From NCBI RefSeq assembly GCF_023169965.1, contig NZ_AP025592.1:4030001-4094000 (forward strand): a DNA stretch of 64,000 bases. Direction: 5' to 3'. A program made the translations under genes and the position numbers. This DNA comes from Anaeromyxobacter paludicola. GTDB taxonomy: Bacteria; Myxococcota; Myxococcia; Myxococcales; Anaeromyxobacteraceae. The notes beneath the pieces are model-generated. The model was not told the origin of the DNA and did no database searches. It worked only from the letters and a program-made list of their open reading frames with translations. Below are positions 4,307 through 12,257 of this stretch, one piece after another (position 1 is the first letter of the stretch; each line of letters opens with the position of its first letter).

Positions 4307-5128
4307 TCACCCCCGCCGCGCCGGGCCCACGATCCCGGTCGGCGAGAGCGAGAGCGCCTCGCCCTTCACCCGCCCGAGGAGCCGGAGCAGCCCGTCGAGC
4401 AGCGTGATCGGGTGCGGCGGGCAGCCCGGGATGAACAGGTCCACCGGCACGCCCGGGAGCGCCTCGGCGGCGCCGCCCGCGACCGAGCCGCCCTGGAACG
4501 GCCCGCCGGAGATGGCGCAGGCGCCGACCGCCACCAGGATCTTCGGCGACGGGGTCGCCTCCCAGGTCCGGCGCAGCGCCTCGCGCATGTGATCCGACAC
4601 CGGCCCGGTCACCACCACCCCGTCGGCGTGGCGCGGCGAGGCGACGAACTGGACGCCGAAGCGGGAGAAGTCGAACTGGACGTTGCCGGTGGCGTTGAGC
4701 TCCGCCTCGCAGGCGTTGCAGCCGCCCGCCGAGACCTGCCGCAGCCGCAGCGAGCGGCCGAGGAGCCCGCGGAGCTCGGCCCCGAGGGCCTCGGCGAGGA
4801 GCGGCCGGTCGCCGGAGACGACCAGCGCCTCGCGGTCGCGGGCCGCGAGCCGGTAGTCGCGGGTGAACCGCACCGCGCCGGTGGGGCAGGCCTCCTCGCA
4901 GCCGGGGCAGAAGGTGCAGCGCCCGAGGTCGAGCGCCATGCCGGCCTCGCCGGGGCGGAGCACCGCGTCCACCGGGCAGGCGTCGGCGCAGGCGCGGCAG
5001 CCGGCCTCGCAGCGGTCCGGGTCGAGCGCCGGCCGGCCGCGGAACCGCTCCGGGAAGCGGGCCGGGCCCTCCGGGTAGGCGACCGTCTGCCGGCCGAGCC
5101 GGGCGCGCAGGCGCAGCAGATCGATCAC
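4307..5128 (-). CDS. hyfI: Hydrogenase-4-like small subunit fused to an N-terminal 2[4Fe-4S] ferredoxin domain (HyfH-HyfI/NuoI-NuoB-like)
   Basis: 273 residues. The N-terminal part has two four-cysteine sets (Cys 40, 44, 47, 51 and 71, 74, 77, 81), each ending in Cys-Pro as in bacterial ferredoxins. The C-terminal part is a NuoB/HyfI-like small subunit with GCNAC (137, 140), GAC (204) and PGCPP (236), the ligands of one proximal [4Fe-4S] cluster. In E. coli these are separate proteins (HyfH, HyfI); here they are one chain. It would pass electrons to the large subunit at the inner membrane's cytoplasmic face. It is last of a six-gene operon; its GTG start overlaps the stop of the large-subunit gene by four bases, which fixes the start. 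Confidence 0.88.
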   Translation of the reverse strand: MIDLLRLRARLGRQTVAYPEGPARFPERFRGRPALDPDRCEAGCRACADACPVDAVLRPGEAGMALDLGRCTFCPGCEEACPTGAVRFTRDYRLAARDREALVVSGDRPLLAEALGAELRGLLGRSLRLRQVSAGGCNACEAELNATGNVQFDFSRFGVQFVASPRHADGVVVTGPVSDHMREALRRTWEATPSPKILVAVGACAISGGPFQGGSVAGGAAEALPGVPVDLFIPGCPPHPITLLDGLLRLLGRVKGEALSLSPTGIVGPARRG

Positions 5129-6591
5129 AGGTCGTGCCCCGCGTAGGAGAGGTTGAAGCTCTTGTTGCAGAGCGGGAAGTCGGAGATCTGCTCGCCGCGG
5201 AGCGCCAGCGCGAGCCCGGCCCAGTCGTGGAACGACGGGTCCACCACGGCGTAGCGGGCGAAGCGGCCGCCCTCGCCGGCGGTGACCACGTGGGCGAGCT
5301 CGCCGCGCCAGCCCTCCACGAGCGCCACCGCGAGGTGGCCCGGCGCGGGCGGCGGGCAGGTGACGCGCGCCGGTCCCTCCGGGAGGAGCTGCAGGGTGCG
5401 GTCCACGAACTGGGCGCTCCGCTCGGCCTCCAGCAGCCGCACCAGCGCCCGGGCGTAGACGTCGCCCGAGTCGGCGCTCGCCACCGGCGGCCGGTCCTGC
5501 CGGTAGTGGCCGGCCGGGTGGTCGCGGCGCACGTCGCGGCCGGCGCCGCAGGCCCGCGCGCAGGGGCCGACCAGCCCGAGCTCGTCGCAGAGCGCCCGCG
5601 TGAGCGCCCCGGTGCCGTCGGTCCGGTTGCGCGCCGAGGGCGAGCGGAAGAGGAGGCCCGCCGCCTCGCGCACCTTGGCGAAGGCGCCGGAGAGCCGGTC
5701 GGCGAGCCGCGCCGTCTCCGCCGGGTCGAGGTCGAAGCGGACGCCGCCCGGGGCGAGGAGCCCCTTGCCGAAGCGGTTGCCGCAGAGCTCGGCGAGCGCG
5801 TTCAGGAACTCGGCGCGGAGCGCGCCCAGGTAGGAGGCCGAGGGGAGGAAGCCGACGTCGCCGGCGATGGCGCCGAGGTCGCCGACGTGGTTCGCGAGCC
5901 GCTCGAGCTCGAGCCCGACCGCCCGGAGCGCCTGCGCGCGCGGCGGGGCCTCGATGCCGGCGAGCGCCTCGACCGCGCTCACGTGCGCGAGGGCGTGGCC
6001 CACCGCGGTGTCCCCGGCGATCGACTCGGCGAGGGCGAGCGCCCGCGGCCCGCGCGCCGCCTCGAGGAGCCGCTCCACCTCGCGCCGCTGGTACCCGAGC
6101 TGGATCTCGAGGTGGAACACGTGCTCGCCGTGGCACTGGAACCGGAAGTGGCCGGGCTCGATGATCCCGGCGTGGACCGGGCCCACCGCCACCTCGTGCA
6201 GCTCCGGCCCCTGCATGGCCCAGCGCGGGGCGCCGTCCGCGAGCGCGCCGCGGACCGGCTTCATCCAGGGGTGCCCCTCGGGCCGCACCCCGTGCTCCTC
6301 GAAGAGGGCCCGCTCGAACCGCTCCACCTGCGGGAAGTCGCGGGCGAGCGACGGGAGCGCGTCGCCGGGGAGCGTGGCGGCGAGGCCGAGCCGGCCGGCG
6401 GCGTCGTCGGCGAGGAGCGCCGTGAGCCGGACCTGGCCGCCGGCGTCGCGCTCGCCCACGTAGGCCGCGAGCCGGCCGCCCGCCTCGAGGGTCTCGCCGA
6501 GGAGCAGCTGGAACCCGGCCGGCGGCAGCACCGGGATCTCGGAGAGCGGCACCACCGCGCCGTTGCGGACCGGGAGGAGGCGGTCGCTCAC
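5125..6591 (-). CDS. hyfG: Hydrogenase-like large subunit without Ni-Fe ligands (HyfG/NuoCD-like, Ehr type)
   Basis: 488 residues: an N-terminal NuoC-like part (about 1-110) followed by a NuoD/[NiFe]-large-subunit fold with the EPGHFRFQCHGEHVFHLEIQLGYQ motif. At the position of the ligand motif RICGIC the sequence reads ESIAGDT (residues 189-195), so both cysteines are gone. At the C-terminal DPCxxC site it reads DFPLCNKSFNLS, with one cysteine (475). A Ni-Fe centre is therefore unlikely. Such proteins occur in Ehr complexes known from Geobacter-type genomes. The GTG start overlaps the preceding stop by four bases; it is translationally coupled to genes on both sides. Confidence 0.88.
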   Translation of the reverse strand: MSDRLLPVRNGAVVPLSEIPVLPPAGFQLLLGETLEAGGRLAAYVGERDAGGQVRLTALLADDAAGRLGLAATLPGDALPSLARDFPQVERFERALFEEHGVRPEGHPWMKPVRGALADGAPRWAMQGPELHEVAVGPVHAGIIEPGHFRFQCHGEHVFHLEIQLGYQRREVERLLEAARGPRALALAESIAGDTAVGHALAHVSAVEALAGIEAPPRAQALRAVGLELERLANHVGDLGAIAGDVGFLPSASYLGALRAEFLNALAELCGNRFGKGLLAPGGVRFDLDPAETARLADRLSGAFAKVREAAGLLFRSPSARNRTDGTGALTRALCDELGLVGPCARACGAGRDVRRDHPAGHYRQDRPPVASADSGDVYARALVRLLEAERSAQFVDRTLQLLPEGPARVTCPPPAPGHLAVALVEGWRGELAHVVTAGEGGRFARYAVVDPSFHDWAGLALALRGEQISDFPLCNKSFNLSYAGHDL

Positions 6592-8015
6592 GGCCGGCCC
6601 CCCACGGTGGCGGAGGCGGCGGCGAAGAGGTCCCGCAAGGACGGCGGGAGCCAGAGCCCGAGCACGAGCGAGGCGGCGAGGAGCGCCAGCGGCGGCGCGG
6701 CGTTCCCCCAGCCGTCGGCCTGGCCCGGCCGCTCCGGGCAGCCCTCCGGGTCGCCCTGCACCACGCCGAGGACGATGGACCCCATGCCGACGAAGATCAC
6801 GGCGGTGAAGGCGAGGAAGAGCGCGCCGGCCACGGCGTGGCCGGAGCCGAAGGCGCCCTGCAGGATGGCGAGCTCGCTGAAGAAGGGGCCGAACGGCGGC
6901 GCGCCGGTGACGGCGAAGAAGCCGGCCAGGAAGAGCGGCCCGGAGAGCGGCAGCCGGCGCAGCGCGCCGCGCACCTCGTCCACCCGCTTCGTGCCGTAGG
7001 AGCGGTGGATGGAGCCGGCGGCGAGGAAGAGCACGCCCTTCACGAGGCCGTTGTTGAGCGCGTGGAAGAACGCGCCCGCCCCGGCCGCGCCGCCCACGCC
7101 GAGCCCCACGGCGAGGATGCCCATGTGCTCCACCGAGGAGTAGGCCAGCATCCGCTTGTAGTCGCGCTGCCCCACGATGAAGACGCACGCCAGCGCCATC
7201 GAGAGCAGCCCCATCACGAGCAGCGCCTGCCGCGAGAAGTCCCCCTCGCCGGCCGCGCCGCAGACCTGGAGCACGCGCGCCAGCGCCAGGAAGGCGGCGC
7301 TGGTGACGCCGCCGGAGAGGAGCGCGCCGAGGAGGCCCGGGGCCTCGCCGTAGGCGTCGGGCTTCCAGGAGTGGAGCGGGGCGAGCCCCATCTTCGTGCC
7401 GTAGCCGACGAGCAGGAAGACGAAGGCGGCGCGCACCCAGGGGCGCGAGAGGGCCGGGCCGGCGGCGACCAGCTCCCGCAGCACCAGCGAGCGGGGGCCG
7501 CCGGGCGCGGCGCTCGCGAGCGCGAGGAAGAAGGTGCCGAGGAGCGCCAGCGCCACGCCGAGCGAGCAGACGAGGAGGTACTTCCAGGCGGCCTCGAGCG
7601 AGCGGGCGTCGCGGTCGAAGTAGATGAGCGGCGCCGTGGTGAGGGTGGTCACCTCGATGGCCACCCAGAGGAGCCCGAGGTGCTGCGAGAGCGCCACCAC
7701 CGAGAGCGCCGCCAGCAGCACCAGGAGGCCGCCCACGAAGACCCGGTTCTCCCGGTCCTCGCGCAGGCGCAGGTAGCGCTGGGCGTAGGCGGCCGAGGCG
7801 AGGAACAGGGCCGAGACGGTGGCGAGCACCACCTTGCCGGGCGCGTCGAGCTCGAGCCAGCCCGGGATCGCCTCGCCGGGATCCGCGAAGAGCCAGGCGA
7901 CGCCGGCCGCGTGCCCCACCGCCCCCGCGAGCAGCAGCAGCGGCCGCGCCCGGCGCGAGGGGAGCGCGAAGGCGAGGGCGCCGAGGAGCAGCGGGAAGAG
8001 GACGACGAGGAGCAT
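6588..8015 (-). CDS. hyfF: Proton-pumping antiporter-like membrane subunit (HyfF/NuoN/NuoM family)
   Basis: 475 residues, about 13-14 transmembrane helices, slightly shorter than E. coli HyfF. The proton_antipo_M core is visible: WVAIEVTTLTTAPLIYFDRD (the conserved helix-5 Glu region), the broken-helix region GTKMGLAPLHSWKPDAYGEAPG (helix-7 Lys), and RDYKRMLAYSSVEHMGIL. These Glu/Lys/His residues are the conserved ion-path residues of complex I-type antiporter subunits. It probably translocates H+ or Na+ across the inner membrane, driven by the soluble arm. It follows hyfE by five bases and overlaps hyfG by four. Confidence 0.9.
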   Translation of the reverse strand: MLLVVLFPLLLGALAFALPSRRARPLLLLAGAVGHAAGVAWLFADPGEAIPGWLELDAPGKVVLATVSALFLASAAYAQRYLRLREDRENRVFVGGLLVLLAALSVVALSQHLGLLWVAIEVTTLTTAPLIYFDRDARSLEAAWKYLLVCSLGVALALLGTFFLALASAAPGGPRSLVLRELVAAGPALSRPWVRAAFVFLLVGYGTKMGLAPLHSWKPDAYGEAPGLLGALLSGGVTSAAFLALARVLQVCGAAGEGDFSRQALLVMGLLSMALACVFIVGQRDYKRMLAYSSVEHMGILAVGLGVGGAAGAGAFFHALNNGLVKGVLFLAAGSIHRSYGTKRVDEVRGALRRLPLSGPLFLAGFFAVTGAPPFGPFFSELAILQGAFGSGHAVAGALFLAFTAVIFVGMGSIVLGVVQGDPEGCPERPGQADGWGNAAPPLALLAASLVLGLWLPPSLRDLFAAASATVGGRP

Positions 8016-8020
8016 CGCGC

Positions 8021-8683
8021 TCAGTCTCGCAGGGCCGAGAGCTTCTCGGTGTCCATCGAGGAGAATGTCCGGTGGATGTGGAAGATGACGATGCCCATCA
8101 CGAACACCGCCGCGAAGAGGTCGAGGAGCACGCCCGCCTCGACCATCCAGGGCATGAAGTCGCTGAGGAGCAGGCCGAAGACGAAGACGCCGTTCTCGAG
8201 CACCAGGAACCCGAGCACCTGCGAGACCGCCTTCTTCCGGCTCACCACCAGCAGCATCCCGGTCCAGACGGTGGAGAGCGAGGTGGCGACGAGGTAGGGG
8301 TGGCGCTCCGGCGTGGGGAGCGGGAGGGTGGCGGAGAAGGCGAAGGCCAGCATCACGCCGAGCCCGCCGAGCACGAGCGACGGCACGTACCCGACCACCG
8401 GCTCCACCTCGCGCGACACCGAGGCCTCGCGCATGGCCCAGCCGAGCATCCAGGGGATGGCGATCCCCTTCACGAGGAGCGCGCCCAGCGAGAGCGCGAG
8501 CACATGGAGGACGTGCAGCTCCTGCGGCGCGAGGAGGAGCGGCAAGAGCGCCAGCAGCGCCCCCTGCGCCGCCACCGCGCGGATGGCCGCCTTGAGCCGC
8601 GACGAGGCGAGCACGAAGAAGTCGATCATCACCACCAGGATGAAGACCGTCTCGGCGATGGTGGCCAGGCGGAGCGCGCTCAT
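8021..8683 (-). CDS. hyfE: Hydrogenase-4 component E-like membrane protein
   Basis: 220 residues, close to E. coli HyfE (216). It has about six or seven hydrophobic helices beginning TIAETVFILVVMIDFFVLAS and ending with an FHIHRTFSSMDTEKLSALRD tail. HyfE is related to NuoK (with an added N-terminal part) and sits in the membrane arm beside the antiporter subunits. Its start overlaps the stop of hyfC by four bases, and hyfF starts five bases after it. The assignment relies on length, topology and position between hyfC and hyfF. Confidence 0.85.
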   Translation of the reverse strand: MSALRLATIAETVFILVVMIDFFVLASSRLKAAIRAVAAQGALLALLPLLLAPQELHVLHVLALSLGALLVKGIAIPWMLGWAMREASVSREVEPVVGYVPSLVLGGLGVMLAFAFSATLPLPTPERHPYLVATSLSTVWTGMLLVVSRKKAVSQVLGFLVLENGVFVFGLLLSDFMPWMVEAGVLLDLFAAVFVMGIVIFHIHRTFSSMDTEKLSALRD

Positions 8684-9600
8684 CGGACCAGGAGGACGAA
8701 GGCGAAGAGGGAGAGGACGCCGGCGCCGACGAGGAGCTGCGGCACCCGGGCGAGCCGCAGGCGGGCCATGGTGGACTCGACGAGCCCGACCGCGATGGCG
8801 AAGAGCGCGAGCCCGACGAGGAGCGACAGGCTGCCCCCGAGGAGCCCCTGGCCGCCGCCGCCGAGCAGCAGCCGCGCGAGGAGCGCGCCGAAGACGTAGA
8901 GCTTCACCGCCGCGCCGTAGAGCACGAGCGCGAGGTCCGGGCCGGAGTGGTCGAGCACCATGACCTCGTGGATCATGGTGAGCTCGAGGTGGGTGGTGGG
9001 GTCGTCCACCGGGATGCGCGAGTTCTCGGCGAGCGCCACCACGAAGAGGGCCACCGCGCAGAGGAGGAGCGCCGGGGCCCAGAGCGCCCAGGCCGGCCCG
9101 AGCGCCGGGCCGAGCATCGCCGACAGCGAGAGCTCGCCGGTGGCGCGCGAGAGCGTGAGCAGGCAGAGGAAGAGCGCCGGCTCGGCCAGGCTCGCGAAGG
9201 TCACCTCGCGGGCGGCGCCCATGCCCTCGAAGGCGGAGCCGGTGTCGAGGGCCGAGAGCACGGTGCAGAACCGGCCGGCGGCGAGGAGCCCGGCCAGCAG
9301 GAACAGGTCCCCGCGGAACGCGAGGAGGGCGGGCGACCCCGGGCCGGGGACGAGCAGCCCGGCGGCGAGCGCCCCGGCGGCGGCCACCACCGGGCCGAGG
9401 TGGAACGCGGCGCCGGCGGTGGTGCTCTTCACCTCGCCCTTGCGGCAGAGCCGCGCCAGGTCGGAGTAGAGCTGCAGGAGCGGCGGCCCCTTCCGGCCGG
9501 CCACGCGGGCCTTCACGCGGGAGACGATGCCGGGGAGGAGCGGGGGCACGACGGCGAGCAGCGCGAGCTGCAGCCCGGCGCGGGCGAGGTCGTGGCTCAC
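8680..9600 (-). CDS. hyfC: NuoH/HyfC-like membrane subunit
   Basis: 306 residues, eight or so transmembrane helices. Diagnostic motifs are GPPLLQLYSDLARLCRKGEV near the N-terminus, the acidic loop ENSRIPVDDPTTHLELTMIH and ATGELSLSAM. These match the NuoH/HycD/HyfC family, which connects the soluble arm to the ion-translocating membrane arm and forms the E-channel. The GTG start lies in a four-base overlap with the stop of the upstream hyfB gene, and its own stop overlaps hyfE. No unusual residue change was noticed. Confidence 0.9.
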   Translation of the reverse strand: MSHDLARAGLQLALLAVVPPLLPGIVSRVKARVAGRKGPPLLQLYSDLARLCRKGEVKSTTAGAAFHLGPVVAAAGALAAGLLVPGPGSPALLAFRGDLFLLAGLLAAGRFCTVLSALDTGSAFEGMGAAREVTFASLAEPALFLCLLTLSRATGELSLSAMLGPALGPAWALWAPALLLCAVALFVVALAENSRIPVDDPTTHLELTMIHEVMVLDHSGPDLALVLYGAAVKLYVFGALLARLLLGGGGQGLLGGSLSLLVGLALFAIAVGLVESTMARLRLARVPQLLVGAGVLSLFAFVLLVR

Positions 9601-11597
9601 GGCCGGCTCCGGAGGGCGAGGATCGCGACCAGCACCACCAGCGTGACGAGCGTGTAGAGGAGCTGCAGGTTGAGCTTGCCGGACTGGAGCCCGCGCAGGA
9701 GCCGGAAGCGGCGCGCCGCCGCGTGGAAGAGCGGCCCGAACAGCCGCTCCTCGGCCGGATCCTGGACGCGCTGCTCGAAGCGGGCCGCGCCGGGGAAGAC
9801 GCCCTGCGGCGGCGTCACGCGGGCGCGGGGCTGCAGGAGCCGCGGCGCCACCGTCGAGAGGAGGAGCTGCGCGTAGGAGGAGGCGGTGTACTGCACCCGC
9901 GCCGATGGGACGGTGAAGCCGCAGCCCCAGGTCTCGCCCGCGACCTGGCCCTGGCGGCGCACGCGCAGCCGGCGCCACAGCTCGAGCGCGCCGGCGAGGG
10001 CCACGAAGGCGAGCACGCCGGCCTGGAGCCCGCCGCCGGCGCGGACCGCCGGGCCGGCCGCGAGGAGGAGCTCCTCGGCGGGGCGGTCGAGGAGCTGCGC
10101 CGCCGCGGGGGCGACGAGCCGGAGGGCCGCCCCGGGGAAGAGCCCGAGCGCGAGGCAGCCCGCGCCGAGGGCGAGGAGCGGCCCCCAGGCGGCCGCCCCG
10201 GGCGCGTGGGCCGTCCGGGCCGCCTCGCTGCGCGGCTCGCCGAGCAGCGCCACGCCGGCGACGCGGGTGAAGGCGAGCGCGGCGAGGCCGCTCACGAGGG
10301 CGAGCGCGGTGAGCGCGAGCCCGGCCCCGAGCGCCGCCGCGCCCGGCGCGTCCACGGCGCCGCGCAGGAGGGCCGAGAAGAGCAGCCACTCCGAGGCGAA
10401 GCCGTTCCAGGGGGGCAGGGCCGACAGGGCGGCGCAGGCGGCGAGGAGCAGCCCGCCCACCGCCGGCATGCGGCGCAGGAGCCCGCCCATGGCCTCGAGG
10501 TCGCGCGTGCCGGTGGCGTGGACCACCGCGCCCGCCGAGAGGAAGGCGAGCCCCTTCATGAGCGCGTGGTTCCAGACGTGGAACAGCGCGGCGAGGGCGG
10601 CGAGGGCGGCCACCGCCGGGGCGCCGAGGGCGCGGGCCGAGAGGGCCGCGCCGAGCCCGGCGGTGACGAGCCCCACGTTCTCGATGGTGGAGCAGGCGAG
10701 CGCGCGCTTGAGATCGCGCTGTCCGAGCGCGAGGGTGATGCCGCCGAGCGCGCCCGCGAGCCCGAGGCCGAGGAGCACCGCGCCGTGGCCGGCCGGCGCC
10801 GGCGGGAGCAGCGTGACCACCCGCAGGATGCCGTAGAGGCCGGCCTTCACGAGCACGCCCGACATCAGCGCCGACACGTGGCTCGGCGCGGCCGGGTGGG
10901 CCTCGGGGAGCCAGAGGTGGAGCGGGGGGAGGCCGGCCTTGACGCCGAACCCGACGAGCGCGAGGCCGAAGGCGAGCGCCGGGGCGACCGCGCCGCCCCG
11001 GACCGCGGCGATGGCGTCGAGGTCGAACGAGCCGGCCTCGCGCCCGAGCAGCAGGAAGAGGGCGAAGAGGAAGGCGGCGCCGAGGTGCGAGGCGACGAGG
11101 TAGACGAGCCCGGCCCGCCGCACCTGCGCGTCGGCGTGGTCGAACGAGACGAGCAGGAAGGAGCTGACGGCCATCGCCTCCCAGGCCGCGAGCAGGAGCG
11201 CGGCGTGCCGCGCTGCGAACACCAGGGCCAGCGCGGCGAGGAACAGGTCGTAGGCGCAGAGGAAGGCGCCGAGGCCGCGCCGGCCCAGGCTCGGCCGCAG
11301 GTACCAGGCCCCGAAGAGCGAGGCCGGGATGCCGAGCGCGAAGAGCGGCGCGAGGAAGAGGGCCGCGAGCGGGTCGAGGCGCAGGTGGAACCCGGCGAGC
11401 GGCGCGTTCCAGGCGAGCGAGAGGTCGAGCGCCGGGCCGCCCGCCAGCACCCGGAGCGCGGGGAGGAGCCCGGCGGCGCAGCCGAGCGCGGCGGCGGCGG
11501 TGGCGGCGGCGAGGGCCAGGCGCGGGCGCGAGGAGAGCGCGACGGCCGCGAGCGCACCCGCGGCGAAGAGGGCCAGGGCCGCCAGGAAGGCGGTCAC
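9597..11597 (-). CDS. hyfB: Large antiporter-like membrane subunit (HyfB/NuoL family), first gene of the complex operon
   Basis: 666 residues, very close to E. coli HyfB (672), with about 16 hydrophobic helices. Core motifs are LLLAAWEAMAVSSFLLVSFD (helix-5 Glu), GVKAGLPPLHLWLPEAHPAA (helix-7 Lys) and LGQRDLKRALACSTIENVGL, followed by a conserved HVWNHALMKGLAFL helix. A long C-terminal extension follows, as in HyfB. The family forms an ion channel in the membrane arm. It is the promoter-proximal gene; 144 bases separate it from the divergent gene at 11742, leaving room for the operon promoter, though I see no convincing -35/-10 pair. Confidence 0.9.
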   Translation of the reverse strand: MTAFLAALALFAAGALAAVALSSRPRLALAAATAAAALGCAAGLLPALRVLAGGPALDLSLAWNAPLAGFHLRLDPLAALFLAPLFALGIPASLFGAWYLRPSLGRRGLGAFLCAYDLFLAALALVFAARHAALLLAAWEAMAVSSFLLVSFDHADAQVRRAGLVYLVASHLGAAFLFALFLLLGREAGSFDLDAIAAVRGGAVAPALAFGLALVGFGVKAGLPPLHLWLPEAHPAAPSHVSALMSGVLVKAGLYGILRVVTLLPPAPAGHGAVLLGLGLAGALGGITLALGQRDLKRALACSTIENVGLVTAGLGAALSARALGAPAVAALAALAALFHVWNHALMKGLAFLSAGAVVHATGTRDLEAMGGLLRRMPAVGGLLLAACAALSALPPWNGFASEWLLFSALLRGAVDAPGAAALGAGLALTALALVSGLAALAFTRVAGVALLGEPRSEAARTAHAPGAAAWGPLLALGAGCLALGLFPGAALRLVAPAAAQLLDRPAEELLLAAGPAVRAGGGLQAGVLAFVALAGALELWRRLRVRRQGQVAGETWGCGFTVPSARVQYTASSYAQLLLSTVAPRLLQPRARVTPPQGVFPGAARFEQRVQDPAEERLFGPLFHAAARRFRLLRGLQSGKLNLQLLYTLVTLVVLVAILALRSRP

Positions 11598-11741: not shown

Positions 11742-12257
11742 ATGTTCGCGCCGATGGTCGTCGCCCCGCTCGCGCTCGCGGCGCTCGCCGCCGCCCCCGC
11801 CTGGCAGGTCACCTACGCCGAGTCGGGCGGGCTCGCCGGCCCGCTCTCCGACGCGACCGTCACCGTCACCAGCGCGGGAGAGGTGACGCTGGCGCGGCTG
11901 GCGGGCACCTGCGCCGGGCTGAAGGCCGATCCCGCCCGGCTCGCCGCCCTCGCGCGCGCGGTCCGCCGGGCCCGGCCGGGCCGCTGGGCGCCGCGCTACG
12001 TCCAGCCCGGGAACCCGCGGGGCTGCTGCGACCTCGTCTCCACCCGGCTCGCCCTGGCGCGGGAGGGGTCGGTGGCCCGCGAGACCGGGTGGTTCGACGA
12101 CGCCCGGGGGCTCGCCCCGGCGGACGCGCGGGCCGTGGCCGACGCGGCGCGCGCCCTCCTGCGGGCGCACCGGCGCTGCGCCGCTACTCCGCCTCCCCGA
12201 GGTCCGCCTCCGACTTCGTCAGCTCCCCCATCACCACCGTCGCGTACGAGCCCCTAG
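11742..12257 (+). CDS. Small exported protein of unknown function
   Basis: 171 residues. I do not recognise a family. An N-terminal hydrophobic stretch (MFAPMVVAPLALAALAAAP) looks like a signal peptide. The mature part starts AWQVTYAESGGLAGPLSDATVTV, contains a few cysteines (TCAG, GCCD, RRCAA) that could form disulphides, and ends in a Pro/Ser-rich tail. The last 74 bases overlap the end of truD on the other strand, and that tail ([17 protein letters not shown]) may be only a by-product of reading antisense to truD. ATG 11742 is the first good start after the divergent intergenic region. Confidence 0.6.
   Translation: MFAPMVVAPLALAALAAAPAWQVTYAESGGLAGPLSDATVTVTSAGEVTLARLAGTCAGLKADPARLAALARAVRRARPGRWAPRYVQPGNPRGCCDLVSTRLALAREGSVARETGWFDDARGLAPADARAVADAARALLRAHRRCAATPPPRGPPPTSSAPPSPPSRTSP

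Follow-up and report, generated by a model that had tools for sequence, protein, structure and literature searches.

An Ehr-type operon without Ni-Fe ligands in Anaeromyxobacter paludicola and the HTH-EIIA gene that accompanies many of its relatives

Introduction

Earlier descriptions of Ehr complexes state that the Ni-Fe ligands are missing and that no function has been assigned (PMC10284858, PMC6349859, PMC7894505, PMC13194489). Genes for Ehr occur in genomes of many bacterial phyla, and the complexes offer a natural case in which to study the conversion of a hydrogenase into a different ion pump, a step that also gave rise to complex I. The closest solved fold is that of the FHL/hydrogenase-4 enzymes (HycE, HyfG; E. 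coli FHL-1 and FHL-2), which are built from equal subunit types. In the large subunit of both systems a NuoC-like domain is fused and the proton-path residues are kept. The MBH and MBS/MBX complexes of P. furiosus are ferredoxin-fed, ion-pumping relatives of complex I, as is proposed for Ehr. Complex I itself (core subunits NuoB, C, D, H, I, K and L/M/N) has lost all four Ni-Fe cysteines, as has Ehr, and the His/Glu/Arg path is conserved in both.

The operon described here lies in a stretch of 64,000 nucleotides, referred to below as the window, from the 4.59 Mb, single-contig genome of Anaeromyxobacter paludicola. Judged from its sequence, it is a new member of the known Ehr family. It shares EhrA, EhrC, EhrL, EhrS and the missing Ni-Fe ligands with the Geobacter sulfurreducens Ehr locus, GSU0739-0745 (PMC7894505, PMC13194489, PMC10284858). 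A residue map, a four-cysteine relative and a probably dedicated regulator, all presented below, make the question of Ehr function testable.

Organization of the operon

The six co-oriented genes occupy positions 4307-11597 on the minus strand and form one tightly packed operon, in which a Hyf/Hyc-type membrane arm is combined with a large and a small subunit, as in Ehr. The spacing reported in the first-pass annotation, 4-base overlaps or 5-base gaps, is found as four overlaps (HyfB/HyfC, HyfC/HyfE, HyfF/EhrL and EhrL/EhrS) and a single 5-base gap at the HyfE/HyfF junction.

The four membrane subunits, together with the HyfG-like EhrL, bear out the names first given to them. The HyfB-like antiporter subunit EhrA (666 aa, 9597-11597) matches Pfam PF00361 (Proton_antipo_M) at 1e-46 and has a C-terminal ND3-like extension with a WGCGF loop. 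It is followed by the HyfC/NuoH-like membrane anchor EhrB (306 aa, 8680-9600; PF00146, NADHdh, 2e-34), the HyfE-like, NuoK-like subunit EhrC (220 aa, 8021-8683; PF00420, Oxidored_q2) and the HyfF-like antiporter subunit EhrD (475 aa, 6588-8015; PF00361, 2e-47). The matches of EhrA, EhrC and EhrD to the NCBIfam models of hydrogenase 4 subunit B (2e-157), membrane subunit (6e-24) and subunit F (4e-87) are strong, yet all fall under the equivalog cut-offs, as would be expected of a related complex other than hydrogenase 4.

The large subunit EhrL (488 aa, 5125-6591; PF00346, Complex1_49kDa) consists of an N-terminal NuoC-like and a HycE/NuoD-like part and has no Ni-Fe ligands; its best PDB match is HycE (7z0s_E). 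The last gene, EhrS (273 aa, 4307-5128; Pfam Fer4_7 and Oxidored_q6), had been named HyfI-like and is in fact a fusion of HyfH and HyfI types: a 2x[4Fe-4S] domain resembling HycF and MbhN (6cfw_N) is joined to a HycG/NuoB-like half. The best PDB matches are HycF for the former half, and MbhJ and HycG for the latter.

The operon differs from those of FHL/hydrogenase-4 in lacking the Ni-Fe ligands, HycB/HyfA, HyfD and a maturation protease, and in having HycF/HyfH and HycG/HyfI joined in one protein. It has no separate Mrp subunits, in contrast to MBH and MBS/MBX, and differs from complex I in having neither the NADH module nor the quinone-site His and Tyr, and in its proximal-cluster motif, CxxC in place of CC. 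Genes for HycB/HyfA, NuoEFG or formate dehydrogenase are absent from the operon. Whereas Geobacter-type operons have two HyfB-like (NuoL-like) subunits, EhrA-1 and EhrA-2, the window operon has one, as do many otherwise typical Ehr operons.

No match to a sigma-54 promoter was found upstream of HyfB at the operon, and the two matches in the entire window are fewer than expected by chance. A divergent frame of 171 aa without a Pfam match (11742-12257) lies between the Ehr operon and truD.

Loss of the Ni-Fe site

EhrL residues are numbered from the GTG codon at 6591. Alignment to HycE of E. coli and to 95 Ehr sequences places the four Ni-Fe ligands of HycE, C241, C244, C531 and C534, at A192, T195, S482 and G485 of EhrL. 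The proximal pair falls in the ESIAGDT motif (6007-6027, minus strand), present as first described, of which AGD is almost invariant in the 95 sequences. The distal pair falls in the C-terminal motif DFPLCNKSFNLSYAGHDL (5125-5181, minus strand, stop codon included). This motif is almost invariant among 92 complete sequences, and EhrL ends there without any extension.

The register is fixed by a Myxococcota relative, L166, which has all four cysteines and reads AERMCGVCSVSH and DFPLVNKSFELCYSCTDR at the two sites. In this register the cysteine of DFPLC (C475), previously taken for one of the two distal ligands, aligns with an Ile of HycE that is not a ligand. Displacement of the Ni-Fe cysteines within EhrL is thereby ruled out: the ligands are missing, not moved. 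None of the four cysteines that bind Ni-Fe in the group 4 (FHL/Hyf) [NiFe]-hydrogenases is left in the predicted protein. The earlier statement that the complex is no hydrogen producer is accordingly well supported at the level of sequence. The loss concerns the EhrL gene specifically, since two HypD genes and further [NiFe] large subunits are encoded in the host genome.

A new metal site formed by C153 and C475, which are better conserved than any other cysteine of the pocket region, was considered and rejected as the leading idea. In some members one or the other is replaced by itself, without covariation, which is unlike a ligand pair.

Family, distribution and origin

At least 573 loci with EhrL relatives were confirmed in one scan, and 80 of these were retained. 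The retained loci span many phyla, among them Myxococcota, Thermodesulfobacteriota, Planctomycetota, Verrucomicrobiota, Spirochaetota, Acidobacteriota, Gemmatimonadota, Elusimicrobiota and Chloroflexota, and almost all have the gene order HyfB(1-2)-HyfC-HyfE-HyfF-EhrL-EhrS. A chance arrangement is excluded by the number of related loci and by the order shared across phyla.

A tree was built from 34 rows, of which the 21 from Ehr group in a single clade (support 99/98), apart from hydrogenases and NuoD. This clade contains the window EhrL as well as the Geobacter argillaceus and Geomonas copies. The Ehr-type identity first proposed from the missing ligands thus holds for both the residues and the phylogeny. 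A second Ehr type of Myxococcota is sister to this clade. The four-cysteine L166 and the ligand-poor L165 and L167 branch just outside Ehr, closer than HycE/HyfG, in a tree whose bootstrap is not fully settled and in which the long-branch L165, L167 and L168 are placed unsurely. The position of the four-cysteine relative fits a loss of the metal site within a group 4 hydrogenase lineage.

The L166 gene (also L177, 11780-13399, G192:C37) encodes all four Ni-Fe cysteines, in AERMCGVC... and ELCYSCTDR, and sits in a HyfB/HyfC/HyfF-type operon; it is likely to be a hydrogenase just outside the Ehr clade. L165, L167 and L168 (G146, G113 and G047) lack some or all of these cysteines and are atypical for Ehr, and their operons include HyfB-like and EhrS-like genes. 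The second Ehr type is about 45% identical to the first and is characterized by VETIAGD[AS] and DFPICNKSFDLSYCG. It is found at L036 (5083-6531, G022) and L038 (6069-7502, G021), where it is separated from the first copy by about 13 kb and lies on the opposite strand, and also in G005, G014 and G023.

Conserved proton path, clusters and channels

The AlphaFold2 model of EhrL has a pLDDT of 90.8. Its best fold match is HycE (7z0s_E; Z 42.6, rmsd 2.3 over 474 residues), followed by the 49 kDa subunits of complex I, with Z of about 37 to 39.

The HycE residues for proton delivery or belonging to the beta1-beta2 loop have been named in the structure paper on the E. coli FHL complex (PMC9474812). 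The equivalents of H188, E193, H284, R395, E437 and R478 are kept in 93 to 95 of the 95 Ehr sequences. In the window EhrL the Glu of the beta1-beta2 loop is E145 and the canopy Arg is R429. The position of HycE D192 is Ile in Ehr, and Asn takes the place of the canopy residue S283, which is also the case in complex I. At the position of the canopy residue D529 most of the 95 sequences have Asn and five have Asp, so that the proton path is only incompletely kept.

All 12 cluster cysteines of EhrS are present, as first noted, and each is kept in 77 to 87 of 88 sequences. The four of the proximal cluster have normal spacing and are kept in 84 to 86 of the 88.

The charged residues of the membrane arm are similarly conserved. 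In EhrA, E140, K220, K297, H340, K348 and E403 are kept in at least 82 of 83 sequences. The acidic chain of EhrB (E125, E132, E140, E192, D199, D200, E206, E212 and E275) is kept in 88 to 90 of 90, EhrC E163 in 87 of 89 and E182 in 89 of 89, and EhrD E141, K208, K287 and K326 in 90 to 93 of 93.

Proposed mechanism and alternatives

We consider it probable, with some reserve, that the intact Ehr complex descends from a group 4 [NiFe]-hydrogenase and works as a redox-driven ion pump with a ferredoxin-type donor and a small acceptor. A low-potential donor, most likely reduced ferredoxin, would dock on the 2x[4Fe-4S] domain of EhrS, from which electrons would pass through the four-cysteine proximal cluster into the metal-free former Ni-Fe pocket of EhrL. 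There the small acceptor would be reduced and protonated by way of the retained Glu/His/Arg/Glu/Arg path. Turnover would be relayed by the EhrL beta1-beta2 loop and by loops of HyfC and HyfB to the HyfC-HyfE-HyfF-HyfB membrane arm, which would move H+ or Na+.

The choice of ferredoxin, already offered as a donor in the first-pass annotation, follows by analogy from the fused 2x[4Fe-4S] domain and from the operon having no input module of the NADH, formate or HycB/HyfA type. It is the most likely donor on these grounds. Ion pumping, likewise claimed at first, is suggested by the conserved channel residues, and to that extent the claim stands; either of the two ions could be the one moved. A proton is unlikely to be the acceptor, since Ni-Fe is absent, and a quinone probably is not the acceptor either.

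Quinone has nevertheless to be weighed, because complex I provides the precedent of an enzyme in which all four cysteines were likewise lost (PMC7684303). The emptied pocket of EhrL could bind menaquinone as complex I does, making the complex a ferredoxin:quinone oxidoreductase, and both the fold match to the 49 kDa subunits (Z about 37 to 39) and the His/Glu/Arg path common to the two (PMC9474812) are consistent with such a function. However, Nqo4 H38 aligns with Ile or Val, and Y87 with Gly, in Ehr, and the proximal cluster has the CxxC of hydrogenases rather than the CC pair of complex I. Ehr is also present in Spirochaetota, many of which are without quinones. It occurs, moreover, in lineages in which no quinone pathway was detected (PMC6349859). 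The missing His, Tyr and CC motif, taken together with this distribution, make a quinone the less likely substrate, and we regard this function as rather unlikely.

MBS is the other known member of the superfamily that is not a hydrogenase (PMC7684303), and with its ferredoxin input and ligand loss it might suggest that Ehr reduces polysulfide or another disulfide at the proximal iron-sulfur cluster. The proximal cluster of MBS, however, has three cysteines in a shortened motif, and two of the four Ni-Fe cysteines are retained (PMC7684303), whereas EhrS keeps four cysteines with normal spacing and Ehr has none of the Ni-Fe cysteines. The glutamate proton donor is also kept in Ehr, although catalysis by MBS is proton-free. 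The three-cysteine cluster and the two cysteines kept in MBS make an MBS/MBX-like role decidedly improbable.

There is similarly little to favour a partnership of Ehr with formate dehydrogenase or another enzyme encoded elsewhere, or operation in reverse, with the gradient driving ferredoxin reduction. A complex of formate dehydrogenase with Ehr has been proposed from gene neighbourhoods (PMC6349859), and Ehr subunits are commoner in formate-grown Geobacter (PMC7894505). However, no formate dehydrogenase cluster recurs near the roughly 95 Ehr loci, and the operon is without a HycB-type linker subunit.

A vestigial Ehr, no longer functional and under relaxed selection, was briefly suggested for Geobacter strain KN400 on the basis of missense mutations (PMC13194489) and would be in keeping with the departure of the window copy from two near-invariant residues (H169R and G171E). 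This reading is very improbable given six intact frames, motifs almost invariant across many phyla and dN/dS ratios of 0.17-0.33 across the six genes (Nei-Gojobori counts against a genome of the same genus). The six genes are under purifying selection.

The HTH-EIIA regulator and other neighbours

A gene whose product combines an HTH_17 domain at its N-terminus with PTS_EIIA_2 at its C-terminus lies just upstream of the operon in 51 of about 95 loci, mostly on the same strand; an example is found at L085, 4278-4985. In its GxAxPH stretch the His, which we take to be the phosphorylated residue from EIIA proteins in general, is kept in 19 of 21 aligned members. The divergent members L116 and L134 are without it.

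The full-length protein is encoded in 23 of the 46 Myxococcota genomes that have EhrL and in none of the 149 that do not (195 genomes; p about 2e-17), and at the genus level in 13 of 26 Ehr genera as opposed to none of 64 others (p about 6e-9), p values to be read with the related genomes not being independent. In 17 of the 23 genomes the gene shares a contig with EhrL at a distance of 6 to 9 kb; the remaining six are draft genomes with the two genes on separate contigs. Outside Myxococcota, four named genomes each have a single strong full-length match, on the contig of the ehr locus. These observations suggest that HTH-EIIA is the dedicated regulator of the Ehr operons in many loci. Ehr itself has been described before, and no earlier report of its co-occurrence with HTH-EIIA, or of any link between Ehr and PTS or EIIA, was found in the literature searched, which omits most subscription papers.

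The Geobacteraceae copies of Ehr adjoin the regulator, whereas the window operon does not. All that the genome of the window contains is a weak EIIA match lacking the HTH part, so the operon there must be controlled otherwise. A fuller proposal, which we put forward tentatively and with some doubt, is that Ehr is a widespread class of complex I relatives and a ferredoxin-driven ion pump with an emptied pocket and a kept proton path, the small acceptor of which is neither proton nor quinone nor polysulfide, and that in many phyla it is controlled by HTH-EIIA, which could read the state of the PTS.

Among the approximately 95 loci, no gene that would name the acceptor recurs widely beside the operon. 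The recurrent neighbours are the HTH-EIIA regulator, NtrC-type two-component genes and, in seven loci, a SulP-type transporter. The SulP-like genes, so named by eye from sequence, are found no more than about 7 kb from the Ehr operon in L041, L057, L071, L077, L089, L096 and L128, seemingly more often than by chance. Response regulators and sensor kinases, assigned to the NtrC type by eye, flank L036, L038, L041-L044, L046, L047, L058, L083, L101 and other loci, and are most frequent in Anaeromyxobacteraceae.

Elsewhere in the genome of the window (G000:C1, 152110-158030), two NuoD-like genes are situated about 4 kb apart on opposite strands. This pairing, which also occurs in several relatives, suggests two divergent complex I operons.
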